The notes under the pieces were generated by a model. The model was not told the DNA's origin, did not search any database, and worked only from the letters and a program-made list of their open reading frames with translations. A stretch of 64,000 nucleotides of DNA from Candidatus Magnetomicrobium cryptolimnococcus (GTDB lineage: Bacteria; Nitrospirota; Thermodesulfovibrionia; Thermodesulfovibrionales; Magnetobacteriaceae), in the NCBI GenBank assembly GCA_018606805.1, contig JAGYWI010000006.1:62001-126000 (forward strand), given 5' to 3'. Both the position numbers and the translations under genes were made by a program. This document shows positions 42,839 to 52,789 of this stretch, one piece after another (position 1 is the stretch's first letter; every line of letters starts with the position of its first letter).

Positions 42839-43486
42839 ATGAAAAAATTACTTAATAATTATGGAAATGTATCAACAATAATGATTGTACTGAGTTTGTG
42901 CTTAGCAGTGTGTTACTTCATTGCTGGTTTGCCAAGGGTAGCAAATGCAGGAGAAACTATAGACCTTCCCAGAACGGGGCAGACGGCTTGCTATTCATCA
43001 AACGGCAGTGTAATTTCGTGTGCTGGCACCGGTCAAGACGGAGATACTTTGGCGGGTGTTGAGTGGCCCTCGCCAAGGTTTACTAGCGACAATAGCACTA
43101 TGACAGATAACCTTACAGGGCTGATGTGGGCAAAGGACGCATCAACCCCTACTGTTAGTTCATGTACAGGCGGGGCTAAGACATGGTCAAATGCCATAAA
43201 TTATGTAACTTGCTTAAATGGCATAAACTACCTTGGATATAATGACTGGCGACTGCCGAACAGAAATCAGCTTGAAAGTCTTGTAAATGCTGAAAGTAGC
43301 AGCCCATCCTCGTGGTTGACATCGCAAGGGTTCAGCGGACTACAGGGCCTATACTGGTCGTCTACTTCTTACGCCGTCGGTACCGTCTACGCATGGTACG
43401 TCAGTATGGGCTACGGCATCGTGTCCCACGGCTACTATAAGGGCTACCACGATACCTATGCGTGGCCAGTACGCCTCGGACAGTAG
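42839..43486 (+). CDS. DGR target protein 1, exported DUF1566 domain
   Basis: The 215-residue protein has a signal peptide (hydrophobic 14-30, cleavage probably after VANA at about 37) and a DUF1566/Lcl domain, a C-type-lectin-like fold: TDNLTGLMWAKDAS, CTGGAKTWSNAINYV, LGYNDWRLPNRNQLESL, then YWSSTSYA and the end YAWPVRLG. Its last 48 codons are variable repeat VR1. Two cysteine pairs near residues 107 and 124 fit an exported protein. GGGGAG precedes the ATG. DGR targets display a variable ligand-binding face; binding partner unknown. It is followed by avd, TR and reverse transcriptase. Confidence 0.92.
   Translation: MKKLLNNYGNVSTIMIVLSLCLAVCYFIAGLPRVANAGETIDLPRTGQTACYSSNGSVISCAGTGQDGDTLAGVEWPSPRFTSDNSTMTDNLTGLMWAKDASTPTVSSCTGGAKTWSNAINYVTCLNGINYLGYNDWRLPNRNQLESLVNAESSSPSSWLTSQGFSGLQGLYWSSTSYAVGTVYAWYVSMGYGIVSHGYYKGYHDTYAWPVRLGQ
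43341..43484 (+). repeat. DGR variable repeat VR1
   Basis: VR1 (144 nt) aligns to the TR at 44036-44176 from TACAG to GG(A)-AGT. In the core, from TACTGGTCG to the shared TATGCGTGGCCAGTACGCCT, I count 18 substitutions, all at TR adenines; all 13 AAY codons of the TR are changed here. VR1 has one codon more than the TR. Outside the core, the 5' edge differs (GGCCTA against AGCTGG) and the 3' edge has C where TR has G. Confidence 0.93.
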
Positions 43487-43514
43487 GTTATTTGATAATT
43501 TGATTATTTGAAAG

Positions 43515-43868
43515 ATGGCACAATACGAACATTTACCAATATATAAAAAAGCCTTTGATTTGGCTGTATATATAGAAAAGATGGTAAAAAATTTTTCACG
43601 ATACCATAAATATACACTTGGATATGCCCTTAGGAATGTATCGAGAGAGATAGTAATGCTGATAATTCGTGCAAATTCTGAAAGGGATAAGCTCTCTACC
43701 CTTGTTCGTTTAAGGGATATGATAGAGGAGCTAAAGCTGACAATACGACTCTGCAAAGAAGTTGAAGCATTGAAGAATTTTAATTCATTTAAGGAGTTAA
43801 TGTCAGCAACAATCAACATAGGCAAACAGAGCGAAGGATGGATAAAGAGTATAAACGGGAGGAAGTAA
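43515..43868 (+). CDS. avd: Avd, DGR accessory variability determinant
   Basis: This 117-residue helical protein has the Avd four-helix-bundle pattern: LPIYKKAFDLAVYIEKMVKN, KYTLGYALRNVSREIVMLII, DKLSTLVRLRDMIEELKLTI, then a last helix ending IGKQSEGWIKS. Avd forms a positively charged pentameric barrel that binds reverse transcriptase and template RNA. It lies 28 bases after the VR1 gene and 170 bases before the TR, the usual DGR order. Its basic composition supports nucleic-acid binding. Family identification comes from sequence pattern and from position. Confidence 0.92.
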   Translation: MAQYEHLPIYKKAFDLAVYIEKMVKNFSRYHKYTLGYALRNVSREIVMLIIRANSERDKLSTLVRLRDMIEELKLTIRLCKEVEALKNFNSFKELMSATINIGKQSEGWIKSINGRK

Positions 43869-44035
43869 TGCCAGAACTGTCATTCATGTTTTTGTGTAAC
43901 TCACAAAACCATAATGGACGGGCGTGCAAAATTAAAACACTGTGCGTCCACCACGCCTCAATGGCATTAAAGGGCAGTCAGTCATACCCGAAGAGGGATT
44001 GGCTGATGAAGAACTCAGAAGTTGGTGGACAAATA

Positions 44036-44176
44036 TACAGAGCTGGTACTGGTCGTCTACTTCTTACGCCGTCAATACCGACAACGCATGGAACGTCAAT
44101 ATGGACAACGGCAACGTGAACAACGACAATAAGGGCAACAACAATAACTATGCGTGGCCAGTACGCCTCGGAGAGT
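44036..44176 (+). repeat. DGR template repeat TR
   Basis: The TR (141 nt) is nearly identical to both VRs except at adenines. It holds 13 AAY codons when read in the VR frame; changes at the first two bases of AAY can give many residues but no stop. The invariant 3' end is TATGCGTGGCCAGTACGCCT then CGGAGAGT. It lies between avd and the reverse transcriptase, and in the reverse-transcriptase frame it is open throughout. Confidence 0.95.
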
Positions 44177-45777
44177 GTTTACCTCCACTTTTTTCTTTTG
44201 AGAATCTCTACAGGTGTTACCTTAAATGTAGAAAAAACAAAAGAAATACAATGAATGTGTTGAAGTTTGAAATCAACGCTGAAGAAAATATTTTTACGCT
44301 ATCCGAACAATTGTTTATGGGAACATATATGCCATCCCGCTCAGTTTGCTTTATAGTTGAAAAACCTAAAATGAGAGAGATTATTGCGGCTGATTTTAGA
44401 GATAGGATTGTCCATCATGTTCTAGTTGAAAGACTCGAAAGAATATTTGAACCGATTTTTATCCATGATTCCTATGCTTGCCGTAAGGGTAAAGGTGTAC
44501 ATAAAGCGCTTGAAAGAGTTAAGGAATTTATAATAAAGGGCAGTAGAAACGGGAATGATAAATTATTCTTTCTTCATTTGGATATTAAGAATTTTTTTAT
44601 GACTATGGATAAGGAGGTTTTATATAGAATATTACAAAAAAAGGTTAAAGATAAAAATGCCTTGTGGCTTGCAAAGATAATAATATTTCATAATCCGGCT
44701 GAGAATTGCATTATTAAAGGTAAGAAATATCTTATAAAGACACTTCCACCACACAAAAGTTTGTTTAATGCTAAACCAAAAACTGGTGTACCTGTAGGAA
44801 ATCTAACGAGTCAGTTTTTTGCAAATGTTTATCTTAATGAATTAGACCAGTATGTAAAGCATGCACTTAAATGCAAATATTACCTGCGTTACTGCGATGA
44901 TTTTTTAATCCTTGATTGCTCAACAGAAAGACTTGAGCAGGTAAGGGGAGATATAGAAAACTTTGTAACTGAACAATTGAGGCTTGCCCTTAATGAAAAG
45001 TACCGCAGTATTTTGCCAGTATCAAACGGCATAGACTTTCTGGGATATGTAATTAGGGGGCATTATACCTTAGCAAGACGGCGAGTTGTTAATAATATGA
45101 AAACAAAGCTAAAAATGTATAAAAAAAGCCTTGTTGTCGAGCAGCAAGAAGGGATTTGTAGTGATTTATTTCCAATTGTTTGGCACTCTAAAGGCAGGAA
45201 TTCATCATTATCGAAGGGTAAACGTATTGTTACCGGAGTGCAGATAATAAAATATGAATGCAGTGTTATTGAGACTTTGAGGGCTACTATTTCTTCATAC
45301 TTTGGTCATTTAGGCTGGGCAGACAGCTACAGATTAAAAGCCAAAATATTGAAGAGATATAGTTTTCTGAATGAATATTTTGTCTTTATGAATGGAAAAA
45401 TACGCCCTTTGTGTAGGTGGAAACAAGATTTTTATAGCGTAAAAAGTCAGTATATTTATTATGCCTCGCTATTTAAAAACAGCGTTATATTATTTCAAGT
45501 AGGTAAATTTTATGAATTTTATGATGACTTGAGTGATGAAATAAATGGAATATTAAAACTAAAAGAGATTAAAGACAGCAGGAGAGGGGTTAAGTATGGA
45601 TTTCCATATACTATGTTAAATAAAAATATCAATAAACTGATAAATCAAGGGATAAGTGTAGTAATTATAAATGAAACAAACAGGTATGTGTTTAAATTAA
45701 AAGAACGAATACCTGTGATAAAAATAGGAGTCTTATTATGTAGGGGCGAACCTATGTGTTCGCCCTATTTGCAATAA
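44101..45777 (+). CDS. DGR reverse transcriptase with C-terminal MutS-like domain
   Basis: From the ATG at 44101, inside the TR, this gives 558 residues; the open frame extends back to GTG 43942. DGR reverse-transcriptase marks are FENLYRCYLKCRKNKR, FRDRIVHHVLVERLERIFEP, HDSYACRKGKGVHKALERV, PVGNLTSQFFANVYLNELD and the active site YCDD (44890-44901). There is no standard start codon between the TR and the first conserved motif. After the thumb region, about residues 450-545 resemble MutS domain I, with ILFQVGKFYEFYDDL (Phe-Tyr-Glu at 45508-45516) and GFPYTMLNKNINKLINQGIS. The final 12 codons come from a dispersed hairpin repeat. It makes mutagenised cDNA from TR RNA. Confidence 0.9.
   Translation: MDNGNVNNDNKGNNNNYAWPVRLGECLPPLFSFENLYRCYLKCRKNKRNTMNVLKFEINAEENIFTLSEQLFMGTYMPSRSVCFIVEKPKMREIIAADFRDRIVHHVLVERLERIFEPIFIHDSYACRKGKGVHKALERVKEFIIKGSRNGNDKLFFLHLDIKNFFMTMDKEVLYRILQKKVKDKNALWLAKIIIFHNPAENCIIKGKKYLIKTLPPHKSLFNAKPKTGVPVGNLTSQFFANVYLNELDQYVKHALKCKYYLRYCDDFLILDCSTERLEQVRGDIENFVTEQLRLALNEKYRSILPVSNGIDFLGYVIRGHYTLARRRVVNNMKTKLKMYKKSLVVEQQEGICSDLFPIVWHSKGRNSSLSKGKRIVTGVQIIKYECSVIETLRATISSYFGHLGWADSYRLKAKILKRYSFLNEYFVFMNGKIRPLCRWKQDFYSVKSQYIYYASLFKNSVILFQVGKFYEFYDDLSDEINGILKLKEIKDSRRGVKYGFPYTMLNKNINKLINQGISVVIINETNRYVFKLKERIPVIKIGVLLCRGEPMCSPYLQ
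45744..45765. repeat. GGGGCGAAC/GTTCGCCC hairpin at the end of the RT gene
   Basis: GGGCGAAC (45744-45751) and GTTCGCCC (45758-45765) form an 8-bp stem with loop CTATGT. The element supplies the last codons of the reverse transcriptase before TAA at 45775. Related half or full copies lie at 3574, 23353 and 45907. Confidence 0.88.
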
Positions 45778-45837
45778 CAAAATGATGGTAGGTTTAGGAA
45801 ATATAATATTGACCGTTGCCCATCTACAAAAAGGACA

Positions 45838-45930
45838 GGGCAGACACACAGGTCTGCCCCTACGCATTCATTACGAATGGATGAACCAAAACGACATACA
45901 GGAGACATATGTAGGGGCGAACCTATGACA
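45838..45930. repeat. GGGCAGAC hairpin plus GGGGCGAAC half-element
   Basis: GGGCAGAC (45838-45845) pairs with GTCTGCCC (45852-45859) around ACACAG; then GTAGGGGCGAACCTATGAC occurs near 45910. These are two members of the same intergenic family, in the 190-base gap between reverse transcriptase and second target gene. Confidence 0.8.
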
Positions 45931-45990
45931 AGTCCTTATTTTTAAATTACATAAAGAAGGAATAAACAAATGGAGAGGAGGAATAAACAA

Positions 45991-46596
45991 ATGGTAAGAA
46001 AGTTAATCTTAATTCAAATGCTTCTGCTAATGATATGTACCAGTGTATATGCTCAAAATACCAAATTATGGAAAACTGGACAAACCACGACTTACCAAAA
46101 TTACGATGATGGTTATTATAGTAATCGTGGACAAGGAGGCGTTAACTGGTCTTCGTCGAGATTTACAGAAAATGATGATGGTACTATAACAGACAGTCTT
46201 ACGGGACTTATGTGGGCAGAAGATGCTTCAACTCCAACTGTTGGTTCTTGCACTGGAGGACGTCGTAGCTGGCAACAAGCATTAGACTATGTAAAATGCC
46301 TAAACAATAACAACTACCTTGGTTATAGTGATTGGAGACTTCCAAATAGAAAAGAGCTTGTGAGCCTTATTGATAGCAGTATGTATAATCCAGCCTTGCC
46401 TAATGGACATCCATTTAGTGGAGTACAGAGCTGGTACTGGTCGTCTACTTCTTACGACGCCGTCTATACCGACGTCGTATGGTTCGTCGTCAGTGTGGAC
46501 TACGGCCACGCATGGAACGTCAATATGGACCACGGCAGCGTGAGCTACGTCCCTAAGGGCTTCGACGGTGGCTATGCGTGGCCAGTACGCCCCTGA
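45991..46596 (+). CDS. DGR target protein 2, exported DUF1566 domain
   Basis: From the ATG at 45991 the protein has 201 residues: signal peptide (hydrophobic KLILIQMLLLMICTSVYA, cleavage after about residue 18), DUF1566/Lcl domain with TDSLTGLMWAEDASTPTVGS, CTGGRRSWQQALDYV, LGYSDWRLPNRKELVSL, then YWSSTSY and the VR2 end YAWPVRP. AGGAGG lies 9 bases before this ATG. A further ATG at 45970 has its own weaker site; a 16-base stretch AGGAATAAACAAATGG is duplicated there. It resembles target 1 over the whole domain. Its TGA (46594-46596) falls within the VR 3' edge, and the frame continues open downstream. Confidence 0.9.
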   Translation: MVRKLILIQMLLLMICTSVYAQNTKLWKTGQTTTYQNYDDGYYSNRGQGGVNWSSSRFTENDDGTITDSLTGLMWAEDASTPTVGSCTGGRRSWQQALDYVKCLNNNNYLGYSDWRLPNRKELVSLIDSSMYNPALPNGHPFSGVQSWYWSSTSYDAVYTDVVWFVVSVDYGHAWNVNMDHGSVSYVPKGFDGGYAWPVRP

Positions 46597-46600
46597 CAGT
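46424..46600 (+). repeat. DGR variable repeat VR2 with internal re-copy
   Basis: VR2 (177 nt) begins like the TR (TACAGAGCTGGTACTGG) and ends TATGCGTGGCCAGTACGCC. It is 36 nt longer: GCATGGAACGTCAATATGGA and its continuation to 30 nt occur twice, the first copy heavily changed and the second with its first seven codons unchanged, and two single codons (GAC, GTC) are added. By hand I count about 23 changes at TR adenines and one C-to-T. Confidence 0.92.
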
Positions 46601-46617
46601 CTGGGTCATTCGATAAT

Positions 46618-47883
46618 TTGATAATTTCGCTGCCTGGCACAGGCAGCGGCAGCGTAACTAGTGAGCCGTCTGGTATAGACTGTGGCTCAGATTGTTCAGC
46701 ATCATACTCACCAGGTACTACCGTAATGCTTACGGTAGTACCCAATGCTCGTTCAACCTTTGACGGTTGGGGAGGGGATTGTAGTGGTACAGGCTCTACT
46801 TGTACTCTTACTATGACTGGTGACAAAAACGTAACAGTTACTTTTAATCTGATACCAACGCCCACTCCTACCCCGACAGCAACACCAACACCAACAGTTA
46901 CAGCCACACCTACAGCGACCCCAACAGCAACGCCAACCCCTACCCCTACTCCAACGGCATTGAGTATTGATGTTTCGTATCAGGGCTTTTTGTTACCGTC
47001 GGAGTTTGATTATTTTTCTTTAGAGGCGGAGGCTAATAAATTACTCAAAGTAGAGGTTGTACCTCAAGGCGGTGTTAGTTCTTTAATCTTAGATGCTAGC
47101 ATTGGAAAACTGCCCTCGTATGCAGGAACAGGTACTTACACCACAAAAGATAAAACCGTACGTGGCAATTATGAGCTTTCTATACCGGTGTCAAAGAGTG
47201 CAAATTCAACATATTATTTTTCTCTCTTTGGCCATGGAATAGACAAATTAGGTGGCAATTATACAATTACGGCTAGTTATGTTGAAAAATACATTAGTGA
47301 TGTCTCCCCAAAGGATGGGGGAAACTCCGGTGTGATTAAGCTTTCTATCAAAGGCATTGGTTTTGTGGATGGCGTAGATGTAGAGTTAAGCGGCAGCGGG
47401 CTTCCTGTTTATAAACCAGATGAAATCACCGTAGTATCATCAATCGAATTGATGGTGTTATTTAATATAGCGGGTGCTTCTCCTGGTCATTATAATGTGA
47501 GCGTTGCTTGGCCTGATAGTACAAAGAAGACCTTAGAGGGGGCTTTTGAAATTACTTCCGGCAAGATTGGTTACAAGCTTGAAACTCAACTCATAACCCC
47601 AAGCGCTACAAGGCCGGGCAGAAATTACAGTTTTGTCGTTGATTATAAAAACACTGGCGATGCCGATATGTATGCCCCGCTTTTAACTGTTTATAGCAAT
47701 ACCAATATGTCTTTAGATAAAAGCAATATTAATGGTGATACGGTTCAACTGTTGGGAATAGGCTCATCATCAATGCCAAACATGTTAGGCATTGGCGAAA
47801 GGCGGAGTATTTCGCTTTATTTTACAGCCCCCTCAACGGGTAATGCAGACCTCACACTTTATGTAACAAACAGACAGTGCTGA
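46618..47883 (+). CDS. adhesin-like fragment, in frame after VR2 stop
   Basis: This open frame (421 residues from TTG 46618) is in the same frame as the VR2 gene and separated from it only by the TGA and seven codons. It starts at once with an InlB-B-type repeat (GTGSGSVTSEPSGIDCGSDC, GWGGDCSGTGSTC), then a PT-rich linker (46858-46964), a pre-peptidase-like strand-rich domain, a TIG/IPT-like domain (ISDVSPKDGGNSGVIKLSI) and a CARDB-like end. It has no signal peptide or good ribosome site of its own. It therefore looks like the middle of a longer secreted protein, broken by the TGA and by a frameshift near 47870. Whether it is expressed is unknown. Confidence 0.6.
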   Translation: MIISLPGTGSGSVTSEPSGIDCGSDCSASYSPGTTVMLTVVPNARSTFDGWGGDCSGTGSTCTLTMTGDKNVTVTFNLIPTPTPTPTATPTPTVTATPTATPTATPTPTPTPTALSIDVSYQGFLLPSEFDYFSLEAEANKLLKVEVVPQGGVSSLILDASIGKLPSYAGTGTYTTKDKTVRGNYELSIPVSKSANSTYYFSLFGHGIDKLGGNYTITASYVEKYISDVSPKDGGNSGVIKLSIKGIGFVDGVDVELSGSGLPVYKPDEITVVSSIELMVLFNIAGASPGHYNVSVAWPDSTKKTLEGAFEITSGKIGYKLETQLITPSATRPGRNYSFVVDYKNTGDADMYAPLLTVYSNTNMSLDKSNINGDTVQLLGIGSSSMPNMLGIGERRSISLYFTAPSTGNADLTLYVTNRQC

Positions 47884-47914: not shown

Positions 47915-50900
47915 ATGAAACCCACCGATATGACTGATGCGGAGTGGGAGAGCTTGTTTCCAGTGCTAACTGCAAGGCTTGGCAATACCTGGACGGATTA
48001 TCTAACGGTACTGCGGGCAGATGCCCTTAGGTATAAGCAGAGAGGTTTAGATGTGTATGACGTTAAGGAACTTCTGCGCATGGAGACACGCCTGGCAAAG
48101 GGCGAGCCTGTGGCGGCAATAAGCGGCACAGTAAGGGATGCCGATACAGGGGCAGCTATTAAAGGCGTTACTGTTAAAATACAAAGTGAAGACGACACGA
48201 TTGTAAAGCAAACCGATAGTCTATATTTCCCCGCTGGACATGTTATTATAGAAGACTTGCCAGATGGCAACTATGAGGTGTTTGTCAGCGGATATTACTT
48301 TGAAACGCCTGTGGTGGTTACCATATCTGATGGTAAGGATTCAAACGACAATGTGTTTTACGTCAAAAAGCTCCCAACTGAGGAAATTAGCGAAGAGGTC
48401 AGCTTTGATGACAGTAACCCATCTTTAACAAAAGATACGTCAGGCAATACTTATCTTGTTTGGCAGCGTGATGGCGAAATCTATTGGGCGATAAACTCAG
48501 GAAACGGATGGGAGAAATACGGCAAAATCCAAGATGCCACGGGCAGTTATCCGGTAATTGCTTATGATTCAGCGCTTTTAGATGATGGCGCAACGCCGGG
48601 ACTGTTTGCCTTGTGGGTATCGGCTGATTCACCAAAACGGTTAGCGTGGTCGGTGGGCAAATTAACAGACAGCGGCATCCAGTGGAGTGAGCCTCAGTAT
48701 CTAACGTCAGATGAATTTGATGACTTTAGCAGTACGGTTGTTATGGATAATAGTGGCGATCCGGTGGTGTTGTGGCTGCAAAAAAATACCAGTATAGATG
48801 ATGATACGGATTTGTATTATAAGGGAATTGAATTGTCTGATATAAACTTGAATTGGGAGCAGGCAATTATTGATGACAATTATGAAAGGTCTTCCAATAC
48901 TGCTTGTATTGAAGAAAATAATTTTAATTATAGAGTGTTAATTCCAGCAACATTATTTGGTAATATTCCAATATTAAAAAAATATTTTAGTACAGTATTT
49001 GGATTATGGGGTAAAAGTAAAGGTTGTGGTGAACTAAATTGTAGTGGTTTATCAATATCGGCTAATAGTGAGATTGGAATGTCCTTACTAAAAGGTTTTC
49101 AATTTACTACTACTGCATCAACTGATGGATATTATGTTTTAAATAAAGAGGAATGTAAGCTTGTGATAGTAGAAGTAGAGGAACGGTTTAAAAATGAAGG
49201 GGTGTTTAATTTAACGGGTGTAGCAGCACCTATACCAGTACTTGGTCTCGTTAGTGTTCGTATAGGTCTTGTTACTTCTATAGAAGGTAAACTTGTATGG
49301 CATACTGAAAGTAGAATTGCTGATCAAACTTCAATACTGTTTGGGTTTGGTGGAAGTGGCTCAGCAGAACATATAGTTTTTACAGGTGCTTATGGAAAAA
49401 GATTAGCTGTAAAATTAACAGGTGAGTTGGAAATATCTTTAACTCCGCCTACTTTTCGACTTAATGGTGCATGTTTTGTTATAAAGTCAGATATGGTTAG
49501 ACTTGCTTGGGGTGTTGTGCTTACAATTCCAACGATAAAATTTGGTTCTGCTTGCCCAGAGGATCCTTTTGTGCTATATAGTTCAAAGAGGGTTTCTGAT
49601 AGTGATACTGCTCAGAATACTTCTTTTGAGTATTCAAAAGACCCATTAATAGGCACAGGTAGCATTTATGAAGGAACACCTGTGCTTGGTAATATGTCAG
49701 AGGATATTTATGATGATAATCTACCATCTGTTGCTAAAAGTAATACAGGTGAGATTATTGTTGTCTGGGCTAAGAATTCTCAAGCTACAGATTTAGGTGC
49801 AAAGGTGTATGCTGGTACCTATAACGGCGCAACTTGGGAAAATTTTGTTGAAATAACCCCTGATTTTGATTTTAATAAAGACGTAGCAGTAGCCTTTGAC
49901 ACTAATGGCAATCCGATGGTCTTGTGGTCAAGTGCCCCTAATGAAGGACTTGATTATAACGCAAGTTCAGTTGAAGAACTTATAGGGGCTACAAATAATG
50001 CCGATATTAAATTTTCATATCGCACGGACAGTGGCTGGAGTACGCCACCGCAGACGTTGGCAATGCTTGCAGGGCGGGATGAGATGGTATCACTTACTAG
50101 CGGTGAAGACGGGCAGATAACCGCATCATGGATTAACCGTTCTGATGATGGTCTAACGTCAACAGTATATGCCTCAAGCTGGAATGGTAGCGATTGGTCT
50201 ACGCCAGTAGCCATAACAACCGTTTATTTATCCGAAAGACCGCAGGTTATTTATGTATCTGGAAAACCTCAGATACTCTTTGCAGCTATGGAAAGTGAGG
50301 ATTCTAACTGGAAAATGTACTCAACCTCGTGGGATGGCGTGCAATGGGCTGTGCCTACTATTATAGATATAAAAGAAGTTCAAGAACAGTCATCTTTAAA
50401 GAGGCGCTGTGCAAAAAATCAAACTCGTTCTACTACCAATAAACCGCCTGCTGAATGCTGTGATAAAGGGGACGATGACGATGAGCCAAAACCTCCAGTT
50501 GACCCTGCTAACCCATATGAGCCAGATGCCCCAGGCAACCCCGGCAAAGAACCTGCTGACAATGCAAGCGTTCCACCGGTTCGATCTCTTGATCCAAATG
50601 AAAAGAAGGGGGCTGATGGTGTGGGTGAGAAGCACTATGTAAACGTTGGAAGTACGCTTCAATACAAGGTATATTTTGAAAATAAATCAACAGCCGAAGC
50701 CCCAGCGCAAGAGGTGTTTGTTACCGATTGCATAGATGAAGACCTTGATATGACTACATTAAAGATTAAAGAGGTTGCCTTTGGAAACACAATTACAGCC
50801 AATCCGGAGGATTCTCCAATATTTGACTCACGGGTTACCATTGACGATTATCGCGGAGATGATAAGGAGTGGTGGGTAGATATTAGCACGGAAATTAATA

Positions 50901-52789
50901 ATAGCACGAGATGCGTTAAACTGACACTACGCACCCTTGACCCAGATACGGAAGACTTACCAGAGGATGCCCTTGCGGGGTTTTTACCGCCTGAAAACGG
51001 CACAGGTAGAGGGCAGGGACATATTGGCTTTTCCATTGATACAAAGAGCAATTTAGCGCCAGGTACAAAGATAGTAAATAATGCCTCTATCGTATTTGAC
51101 ACAAACGAGGCTATTGTTACTAATGATGTAACTAACACTATATTTGAAGAGCTTGACCCGTACATATCCATATCACGCACCTCTTATGATTTTGGCGATG
51201 TTAATGTGGAGAGCAGCAAAGAGCAGGTGTTTACAGTAACTAACGTAGGCGCTGGAGAGCTTAAGATAGATTCAATATCTCAAGGCGGTGCTCAGCCTAC
51301 CCAATTTGTTACACAAGCAGACAACTGCTCAGGTAAAACCCTGGCGCCCGAGGGCAAGTGCACTATCTATGTAGCGTTTAAACCATTATCAGATGGTACG
51401 AAAACTGCGTTATTGTCAATACCATCAAATGACAGTTCTAACTCCATAATTGAAATATCATTAACAGGTATAGGCACAGGCAGTGGAACACAAACGCTGA
51501 CGCCTACACCTACACCAACCCCTACCGAAACAAACGGCGGTAATACTGGCGGTGGTACTGGCGGTGGTACAAGCGGAGGAAGTGGCGTCGTCGGTAGTAG
51601 CTCGACGCCATTACCAACACCAACGACGACTATAACGCCAACGCCAACTGCAACACCTACAGTTACTCCAACACCGACGTTAACGCCTACACCTACCTTG
51701 ACGCCAACGCCAACAGTTACCCCAACGCCAACACCGACCGTAACGCCAACGGCGGCGCTAAAGACGATAAATCCATTTAAAGCAACCAACATGGGGGATT
51801 TAAACGGGGATGGCAATACGGATGTCCTTGGGCTTACGTCAAATGGTGATATATACTATACAGCCGACTTAGCGACGTGGCACTATATACCCGGCCAACT
51901 GTCTCAGGCTGTCGTAAGAGACATTAATGGAGATGGACAGGATGATATTATTGGCATTAGTGCTGATGGTAGTGGGCAAGTATACTTTACAACAAATCTT
52001 GGTGTTAACTGGACTTGGGTGCAGGGGCAACTAAAGAGGCTTTATGCAGCCGATCTAAATGATGATGGCAAGCTTGATATTGTTGGTTTTGCAAATGACG
52101 ACAGTGTTTGGTATACCACAAATCCTACGGATACTACACCAAAATGGGCTAGTGCTTCTGGTATACTTACAGATATGGTGATAACGGATATGGATAATGA
52201 TGGTATGGCTGAAATATTTGGTATTAATGGAACTGGCAGTGGTGAGTATCAAGGCTCGATTTGGTATACTGAAAATCCAACAGGGCTTAATCCCACATGG
52301 CAGAGGATACAGGGCTCGTTGTCAAAGATGAGTGTAGGAGACTTTAATAGGGATGGACAGATTGAAATATTTGGTATTAATGAATATGGAAGTGGTGAGT
52401 ATCAAGGGTCGGTGTGGTATACAGGAAACCCAACGGCTGCAGCACCTGTGTGGAGTCGTTTAAGTGGAATACTTTCGGATATTGCAATTGGGGATATTGA
52501 TGGGGATGGGAAATATGATATTGTAGGCTTAAACGGCTATGGTGTGGGTGAGTATAGAGGGTCAATTTGGTATATGGTGCAGGCTAATCAAGGACAGTGG
52601 GGTAGAATTAATGGAAATCTATCCGCCATATCGGTTGGTGATATGGATGGTGATGGTAAGGCGGATGTAATAGGAATAAACGGCGACGGAGTCGGTGAGT
52701 TTAGGGATACGGTATGGTACATGCTAAACCTATTGTCTTATACTGAGAAGGGTTGGCATCAGATTAGAGGATATTTGAGTATATTTTAA
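47915..52789 (+). CDS. giant surface protein with ASH-like, PT-rich and FG-GAP-like domains
   Basis: The 1624-residue frame begins at ATG 47915 but coding sequence clearly extends upstream in frame (SAEAINWDEQKAY before it) with no start. In order: a conserved helical block (PTDMTDAEWESLFP), a carboxypeptidase-regulatory-like domain (ISGTVRDADTGAAIKGV), beta-propeller-like repeats, a DUF11-like block after VRSLDPNEKKGADG, an ASH/choice-of-anchor-D domain (ISRTSYDFGDVNVESS), a PT-rich linker (51490-51765), and six FG-GAP/integrin-like repeats with DLNGDGNTD-type calcium loops. It is probably an adhesin or cell-surface protein; export needs the missing N-terminus. Confidence 0.8.
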   Translation: MKPTDMTDAEWESLFPVLTARLGNTWTDYLTVLRADALRYKQRGLDVYDVKELLRMETRLAKGEPVAAISGTVRDADTGAAIKGVTVKIQSEDDTIVKQTDSLYFPAGHVIIEDLPDGNYEVFVSGYYFETPVVVTISDGKDSNDNVFYVKKLPTEEISEEVSFDDSNPSLTKDTSGNTYLVWQRDGEIYWAINSGNGWEKYGKIQDATGSYPVIAYDSALLDDGATPGLFALWVSADSPKRLAWSVGKLTDSGIQWSEPQYLTSDEFDDFSSTVVMDNSGDPVVLWLQKNTSIDDDTDLYYKGIELSDINLNWEQAIIDDNYERSSNTACIEENNFNYRVLIPATLFGNIPILKKYFSTVFGLWGKSKGCGELNCSGLSISANSEIGMSLLKGFQFTTTASTDGYYVLNKEECKLVIVEVEERFKNEGVFNLTGVAAPIPVLGLVSVRIGLVTSIEGKLVWHTESRIADQTSILFGFGGSGSAEHIVFTGAYGKRLAVKLTGELEISLTPPTFRLNGACFVIKSDMVRLAWGVVLTIPTIKFGSACPEDPFVLYSSKRVSDSDTAQNTSFEYSKDPLIGTGSIYEGTPVLGNMSEDIYDDNLPSVAKSNTGEIIVVWAKNSQATDLGAKVYAGTYNGATWENFVEITPDFDFNKDVAVAFDTNGNPMVLWSSAPNEGLDYNASSVEELIGATNNADIKFSYRTDSGWSTPPQTLAMLAGRDEMVSLTSGEDGQITASWINRSDDGLTSTVYASSWNGSDWSTPVAITTVYLSERPQVIYVSGKPQILFAAMESEDSNWKMYSTSWDGVQWAVPTIIDIKEVQEQSSLKRRCAKNQTRSTTNKPPAECCDKGDDDDEPKPPVDPANPYEPDAPGNPGKEPADNASVPPVRSLDPNEKKGADGVGEKHYVNVGSTLQYKVYFENKSTAEAPAQEVFVTDCIDEDLDMTTLKIKEVAFGNTITANPEDSPIFDSRVTIDDYRGDDKEWWVDISTEINNSTRCVKLTLRTLDPDTEDLPEDALAGFLPPENGTGRGQGHIGFSIDTKSNLAPGTKIVNNASIVFDTNEAIVTNDVTNTIFEELDPYISISRTSYDFGDVNVESSKEQVFTVTNVGAGELKIDSISQGGAQPTQFVTQADNCSGKTLAPEGKCTIYVAFKPLSDGTKTALLSIPSNDSSNSIIEISLTGIGTGSGTQTLTPTPTPTPTETNGGNTGGGTGGGTSGGSGVVGSSSTPLPTPTTTITPTPTATPTVTPTPTLTPTPTLTPTPTVTPTPTPTVTPTAALKTINPFKATNMGDLNGDGNTDVLGLTSNGDIYYTADLATWHYIPGQLSQAVVRDINGDGQDDIIGISADGSGQVYFTTNLGVNWTWVQGQLKRLYAADLNDDGKLDIVGFANDDSVWYTTNPTDTTPKWASASGILTDMVITDMDNDGMAEIFGINGTGSGEYQGSIWYTENPTGLNPTWQRIQGSLSKMSVGDFNRDGQIEIFGINEYGSGEYQGSVWYTGNPTAAAPVWSRLSGILSDIAIGDIDGDGKYDIVGLNGYGVGEYRGSIWYMVQANQGQWGRINGNLSAISVGDMDGDGKADVIGINGDGVGEFRDTVWYMLNLLSYTEKGWHQIRGYLSIF

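Follow-up and report, generated by a model that had tools for sequence, protein, structure and literature searches.

A diversity-generating retroelement of Candidatus Magnetomicrobium cryptolimnococcus with a structured RNA upstream of its template repeat and a periodic sequence array behind its targets

How does a diversity-generating retroelement (DGR) tell its targets from its template, and where does its cDNA start? Current knowledge of both matters comes mainly from one phage. The locus described here, which raises both questions, lies in a stretch of 64,000 nt (the window; G000:C72:62001-126000) of the 3.59-Mb genome of Candidatus Magnetomicrobium cryptolimnococcus. A first-pass annotation had proposed a complete DGR in which a VR1 gene, avd, the template repeat (TR), the reverse transcriptase (RT) gene and a VR2 gene follow one another on the plus strand. 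Coordinates (42839-46596), Pfam domains and the adenine-specific divergence of the repeats confirm this order. That annotation did not include the MutS domain of the RT, the in-frame TR, the upstream RNA, the arrays, the duplication within VR2, or the stop codon and frameshift behind it. The core DGR is of an already known kind; the main interest of the locus is the three-way-junction RNA upstream of the TR together with the array on the VR side. We read the whole as a DGR of the working type with an upstream RNA platform and array-marked targets, a reading to which we assign a probability of about 0.9. The features are as follows.

42839..43486, + strand: target gene 1; signal-peptide-like N-terminus, Lcl_C/DUF1566 domain with VR1 at its end (Pfam Lcl_C 1.1e-27)
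43341..43484, + strand: VR1, 144 nt, equal to the TR plus a single 3-nt insertion
43490..43510, + strand: array after VR1, ATTTGATAATTTGATTATTTG; T-rich, 8-nt period, identical to the consensus
43515..43868, + strand: avd (accessory variability determinant); Pfam bAvd 1.9e-13, PHROG Avd 1.4e-23
43906..44045, + strand: structured RNA; a hairpin followed by a three-way junction with GUCCACCA/UGGUGGAC as its closing stem, the final bases overlapping the TR start
44036..44176, + strand: TR, 141 nt, A-rich relative to all VRs; IMH* CGGAGAGT at its end
44101..45777, + strand: reverse transcriptase, from its most likely start; RT domain from 44191 (Pfam RVT_1 4e-18, PHROG RT 4.6e-110)
45445..45681, + strand: MutS domain I at the RT C-terminus; PF01624 1.2e-9, F-x-E motif GKFYEFYDD
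45970..46596, + strand: target gene 2; signal-peptide-like N-terminus, Lcl_C with VR2 at its end (Pfam Lcl_C 1.1e-29)
46424..46600, + strand: VR2, 177 nt, a mosaic of the TR
46608..46628, + strand: array after VR2, ATTCGATAATTTGATAATTTC; 8-nt period
46618..47883, + strand: in-frame continuation of the VR2 gene past its TGA; InlB-type B repeat, CARDB-like
46628..46648, + strand: hairpin after VR2, CGCTGCCTGGCACAGGCAGCG; 9 bp

To judge by its sequence anatomy, the locus is a genuine DGR, an identity resting on A-specific TR/VR divergence, an RT with the SQ motif, Avd, the IMH/IMH* difference and lectin-like targets. VR1 departs from the TR at 20 of 47 A positions and at 4 of 97 others (Fisher p 2.7e-8); the corresponding counts for VR2 are 23/57 and 4/120 (p 8e-10), an excess at adenines that is far beyond chance. 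The four non-A differences of VR1 comprise three at its 5′ edge and the G/C difference of the IMH; in VR2, one is a C-to-T change inside a duplicated segment and three lie at the IMH end. In nearly all loci the IMH at VRs reads GGACAGT and the IMH* at TRs reads GGAGAGT or GGAAAGT, the same base separating the two at every TR and at almost every VR of the clade; VR2 of the window reads TGACAGT. The RT carries the DGR-type (I/V/L)GxxxSQ motif as VGNLTSQ, and among solved structures it is closest to the RT of the Bordetella phage DGR (8ub7; sequence 1.1e-37, fold TM 0.87 on target). AF2 modeled the RT domain well (pLDDT mostly 80-97) and gave no confident model of the C-terminal domain, from an input alignment without MutS_I rows; the VR2 protein reached a pLDDT of 41. 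The avd product also matches NCBIfam DivGenRetAVD at 1.1e-13, under the model's own cut-off. In RT sequence and fold, Avd, A-specificity, IMH/IMH* and gene order, the locus resembles the DGR of Bordetella phage BPP-1 (avd-TR-spacer-brt, with target mtd). Both targets had been described as exported and lectin-like. Pfam supports the latter, and Lcl_C/DUF1566, which has been assigned to the C-type-lectin (CLec) fold (PMC6642488), was found at the VRs of this genome by Pfam and, for VR1 of contig C67, by sequence. Export is likely, given signal-peptide-like N-termini that were read by eye and not by a predictor.

The first-pass annotation counted two targets and one template. This holds for the cassette in the window; a search of the genome with the TR, which it had suggested, yielded further VRs, namely ten places comprising two cassette TRs (TR1, that of the window, and TR2) and eight VRs. 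Contig C67 of the same genome carries the second complete cassette, with TR2, its own avd and RT, and two VR genes. A further VR, about 100 kb from the window cassette on C72, fits TR2, from which it differs by 12 A changes and by a single other change, at the IMH base; we read it as probably written in trans from TR2 of the other cassette. On contig C25 (L010, 7737-8936, minus strand), a VR lectin domain forms the end of a trypsin-like protease (Trypsin_2 6.9e-22) that has no obvious signal peptide; sensor and effector may here be combined in a single protein. On contig C4 (L011, 841-2583, minus strand), one protein contains two VR lectin domains, of which VRa combines TR1-like with TR2-like features and VRb has a long back-jump, a pattern that may point to a third TR or to a recombinant. 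The VRs of C25 and C4 mismatch the present TR1 at a few non-A sites, where they match adenines of other TRs (GCC AAC vs GCC GTC in TR1); either TR1 was altered at adenines, or a third TR is missing from the assembly. TR1 (44036-44176) has GCC GTC, and the other TRs of the clade have GCC AAC or GCT AAC; TR1 itself may have changed at adenines and handed the change to VR1 and VR2. In having several loci, remote targets, tandem VR domains and peptidase-associated targets, this genome is similar to the multi-locus DGRs of Thiohalocapsa PB-PSB1 (PMC10907252) and Stenotrophomonas SKA14, the latter with two TRs, six VRs and DUF1566 targets (PMC6642488). It differs from both in the union of trypsin-like and VR lectin domains in one protein on C25.

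The RT reading frame extends without a stop through the TR, which ends 14 nt before the RT domain, and no ATG, GTG or TTG occurs between the two. The start is most likely ATG 44101, within the TR; the alternatives are GTG 44116 and, upstream, GTG 43942 and TTG 43999. In family f21, the RT frame opens just 84 nt before the domain, and the RT start codons lie within the TR, in a frame other than the lectin frame. Overlap of a TR with an RT ORF is known as a class, DiGReF group 3 (PMC3521204). In that group the TR overlaps an end of the RT ORF, and the window is like it in that its TR overlaps the 5′ end of the RT frame. What differs is that in one family studied here the only standard starts of the RT lie within the TR. 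The RT of BPP-1 shows neither this overlap nor the domain fusion described below.

Residues 502-580 of the 611-aa RT frame match MutS domain I with 38.9 bits against a Pfam cut-off of 20.6. The same fusion occurs in G081, G082, G108, G211, G215 and G240; in G218 an overlapping frame encodes the domain, and in G133 alignment reveals it where Pfam does not. In the tree, the ten RTs labelled MutS_I group as a single clade (support 99/96), and the viral RTs related to the window RT contain no F-x-E domain. A search of the phylum with the domain returned mostly genuine MutS proteins, which bears out the homology, and did not demonstrate separate MSL genes. It should be noted that MutS-like (MSL, PF01624) proteins are known DGR accessories (PMC10053308), and a MutS domain tied to DGRs is thus not new in general; what differs here is its fusion to the RT C-terminus within one clade, in place of a separate gene. 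Perhaps the domain grips the mismatched duplex of cDNA and target. Elsewhere in these RTs, L046, L047 and L050 (G215, G211 and G218) have in-frame, repeat-like inserts between conserved blocks (e.g., HSRESGNPE, NPSLPKRG). At the RT 3′ end of the window locus, two identical 20-nt repeats (TATGTAGGGGCGAACCTATG) are found at 45737-45756 and 45908-45927, the first encoding the final RT codons.

In the Bordetella phage, the spacer 3′ of the TR folds, recruits RT-Avd and primes (PMC12875486). The window has no such structured spacer between TR and RT; its structured RNA lies upstream of the TR. A covariance model of this RNA, built from four loci, gave 140-146 bits in G084, G240 and G252, in addition to finding its four source loci. 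Weaker matches fall exactly 5′ of the TR in family f21 and in G133, those of f21 (28.4 and 20 bits) being counted only for being flush with the TR; the RNA abuts the TR in distant families. Across ten loci, some related and therefore not independent, 96.5% of the cells in 27 pairs are standard and 13 pairs changed on both sides, in an alignment that was fitted to the structure and is biased in its favour. The compensatory changes are nevertheless present already in the first four-sequence MAFFT alignment, and the pairing was equalled by none of 500 shuffles and was lost when partners were slid by one to three columns. No part of the locus matches Rfam (E 1). Comparative sequence evidence thus strongly supports the upstream RNA as a structure. 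A model match of 27.8 bits in G211:C72, within a sugar-nucleotide gene, was rejected and sets the chance floor. A 31.5-bit match in another genome (L118, G224:C67, 5708-5858) has neither RT nor VR nearby and is perhaps the relic of a lost DGR. A further locus, L117 (G084:C29, 3364-3636), consists of a TR with the upstream RNA and two VRs differing at adenines, with no RT behind; the G084 genome (88% complete) contains no RT match at 1e-20.

In this lineage the upstream RNA would most likely serve as the platform for RT and Avd, since no space is left 3′ of the TR for a folding, priming spacer such as the Bordetella phage has. A different assignment, which we consider somewhat doubtful although it deserves weight, makes the upstream RNA a regulatory leader for TR and RT expression and places the priming element in the 5′ part of the RT gene. 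The known system does rely on a 3′ RNA (PMC12875486), and the first 45 RT codons show raised synonymous conservation in comparison with G081a (21/35 vs about 90/258 elsewhere). The rise is not seen, however, against C67, G081b or G240, and structure between TR and RT is weak, with a covariation score of -0.56 in the 5′ coding part of the RT vs -3.56 upstream. With weak covariation and a synonymous signal in one of four comparisons, a 3′ RNA element in this coding region is unsupported, though conceivable. Two cassettes, C67 and G240, have inserts between TR and RT (240 nt and about 90 nt) that are not common to other loci, and their VRs nevertheless match their own TRs mostly by A changes, which argues that nothing directly 3′ of the TR is indispensable. 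Finally, the three-way junction is flush with the TR and accompanies it even at the RT-less locus of G084, which counts against the leader assignment.

Behind the VRs, a few bases from the IMH, the clade has an array with an 8-nt period and the consensus ATTTGRTN, a feature by which the window differs from BPP-1, as it does in having several targets, some of them remote. Scored out of 21, all 17 VRs reached 15-20, nine TRs 7-12 and none of 614 control flanks 16, with the consensus derived from the VRs being scored and only the lag-8 self-match serving as an independent test. A few VRs found later scored 13-15, and that of G133 lacks the array (score 12). With two mismatches allowed, the pattern matched 14 times in the whole genome, 12 of these at six VRs, and the reversed pattern did not match at all. 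The two non-VR matches, both on the minus strand (G000:C16:52133-52153 and C62:11472-11492), have no lectin gene within the 3 kb around each. For this clade, the lag-8 self-match behind VRs had a z of 13.7; it was 9.5 for 24 VR flanks from other DGRs (Bacteroidota, Legionella, Ignavibacteria and further genomes from the class) and 6.9 for the flanks of 20 viral VRs, several of these VRs and loci sharing descent; TR flanks gave no lag-8 signal. The unit varies by clade and the period is constant (ATTTGATN; CTCTTTGT GCTTTTAC in G202). Homing in the Bordetella phage needs a hairpin after the VR, separated from it by a 4-bp spacer without sequence requirement (PMC3240598). Many loci have a GC-rich hairpin behind the array, and some viral VRs have a hairpin-like flank in place of the array; no hairpin of at least 6 bp occurs within 70 nt after VR1. 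No description of the array was found in the literature that could be searched.

As a sequence pattern, the array is strongly supported; the role that we infer for it is the marking of targets. Might the arrays instead be functionless remnants, carried along with the VRs when targets were duplicated? The VR flanks within one genome are indeed alike in sequence. Simple copying, however, sits poorly with a period that is conserved though the unit differs between clades, and with the presence of arrays in genes without homology to one another, in flanks that are coding or non-coding, in several phyla and on viral contigs; we regard this explanation as unlikely.

The sequence comparisons suggest an active element, and the DGR of the window has probably been active recently. 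The second target calls for comment in this respect. A TGA at 46594-46596, inside the VR2 IMH, ends the VR2 gene, and the same frame runs on to 47883, shifting near 47870 into 47915-52789; the TGA and the frameshift look as though they split one long surface-protein gene reaching 52789. In the C4 homologue, Lcl_C and the following repeat share a single frame, and a similarly composed gene in G252 encodes 2005 aa. Target 2 may be decaying or may be misassembled, both being possible. The nonsense codon and frameshift, the misfit of the C25 and C4 VRs to the present TR1 at several non-A positions and the RT-less TR locus of the relative G084 could also be taken to mean that the DGR was once active and is now silent, its TR/VR differences old and target 2 being lost. 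We think this improbable. Both cassettes have an intact RT, Avd and TR, and VR1 and the three VRs of TR2 are nearly free of non-A changes within the repeat; during a long silence such changes would have accumulated.

The first-pass annotation took both targets to end in near copies of the 141-nt template; the length of the TR stands, and VR2, at 177 nt, is a mosaic of the TR, 36 nt longer than it. Its alignment runs through TR 1-33, 31-61, 59-76 and 47-141, with back-jumps of 3, 3 and 30 nt, and both copies of the duplicated stretch have changed almost solely at adenines. Replication slippage can create tandem duplications, but an origin of the added 36 nt in ordinary DNA slippage or selection rather than in reverse transcription is quite unlikely, as the copies, whose changes are not the same, depart from the TR almost exclusively at adenines, and a long back-jump of the same type recurs in a second VR, C4b. 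Slippage by threes at AAC repeats has already been proposed (PMC12875486), and the 30-nt jump of VR2 is, from its sequence, apparently a larger case of it.

The mechanism that we propose is as follows. A transcript running from avd into the RT gene would contain the TR, and the RT, probably initiated within the TR and aided by Avd, would copy it to cDNA, with the three-way junction directly 5′ of the TR as the RNA platform for both proteins. The RT would misincorporate opposite template adenines and sometimes slip or jump back at AAC-rich repeats, making the copy longer by multiples of three. In lectin-like genes, the mutated cDNA would then take the place of the VR, upstream of the IMH. The one-base difference between IMH (GGACAGT) and IMH* (GGAGAGT) would spare the template from becoming a target, and the target would be marked by the IMH and the T-rich array behind the VR, a hairpin being optional.

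Beyond this locus, we tentatively suggest, with somewhat less than even confidence, that DGRs have two general parts that have gone undescribed: a 5′ three-way-junction RNA replacing the 3′ spacer, which would make an RNP permuted with respect to that of the Bordetella phage and with different priming, and a T-rich array of 8-nt period, common to DGRs from several phyla, that marks genuine targets. Such an array could bind Avd or RT, or could open easily as a single strand for entry of the cDNA. The MutS_I domain would on the same proposal hold the mismatch-rich duplex of cDNA and target away from host repair. If the upstream platform is real, a conserved RNA fold on the other side of the TR would mean that the priming arrangement of the Bordetella phage is not universal. 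The fusion of MutS_I, with its F-x-E motif kept, connects hypermutation to mismatch recognition. The array, present at targets and absent at templates, is a candidate recognition element that is directly testable, and it offers an easily computed marker of VRs that lack a TR nearby.
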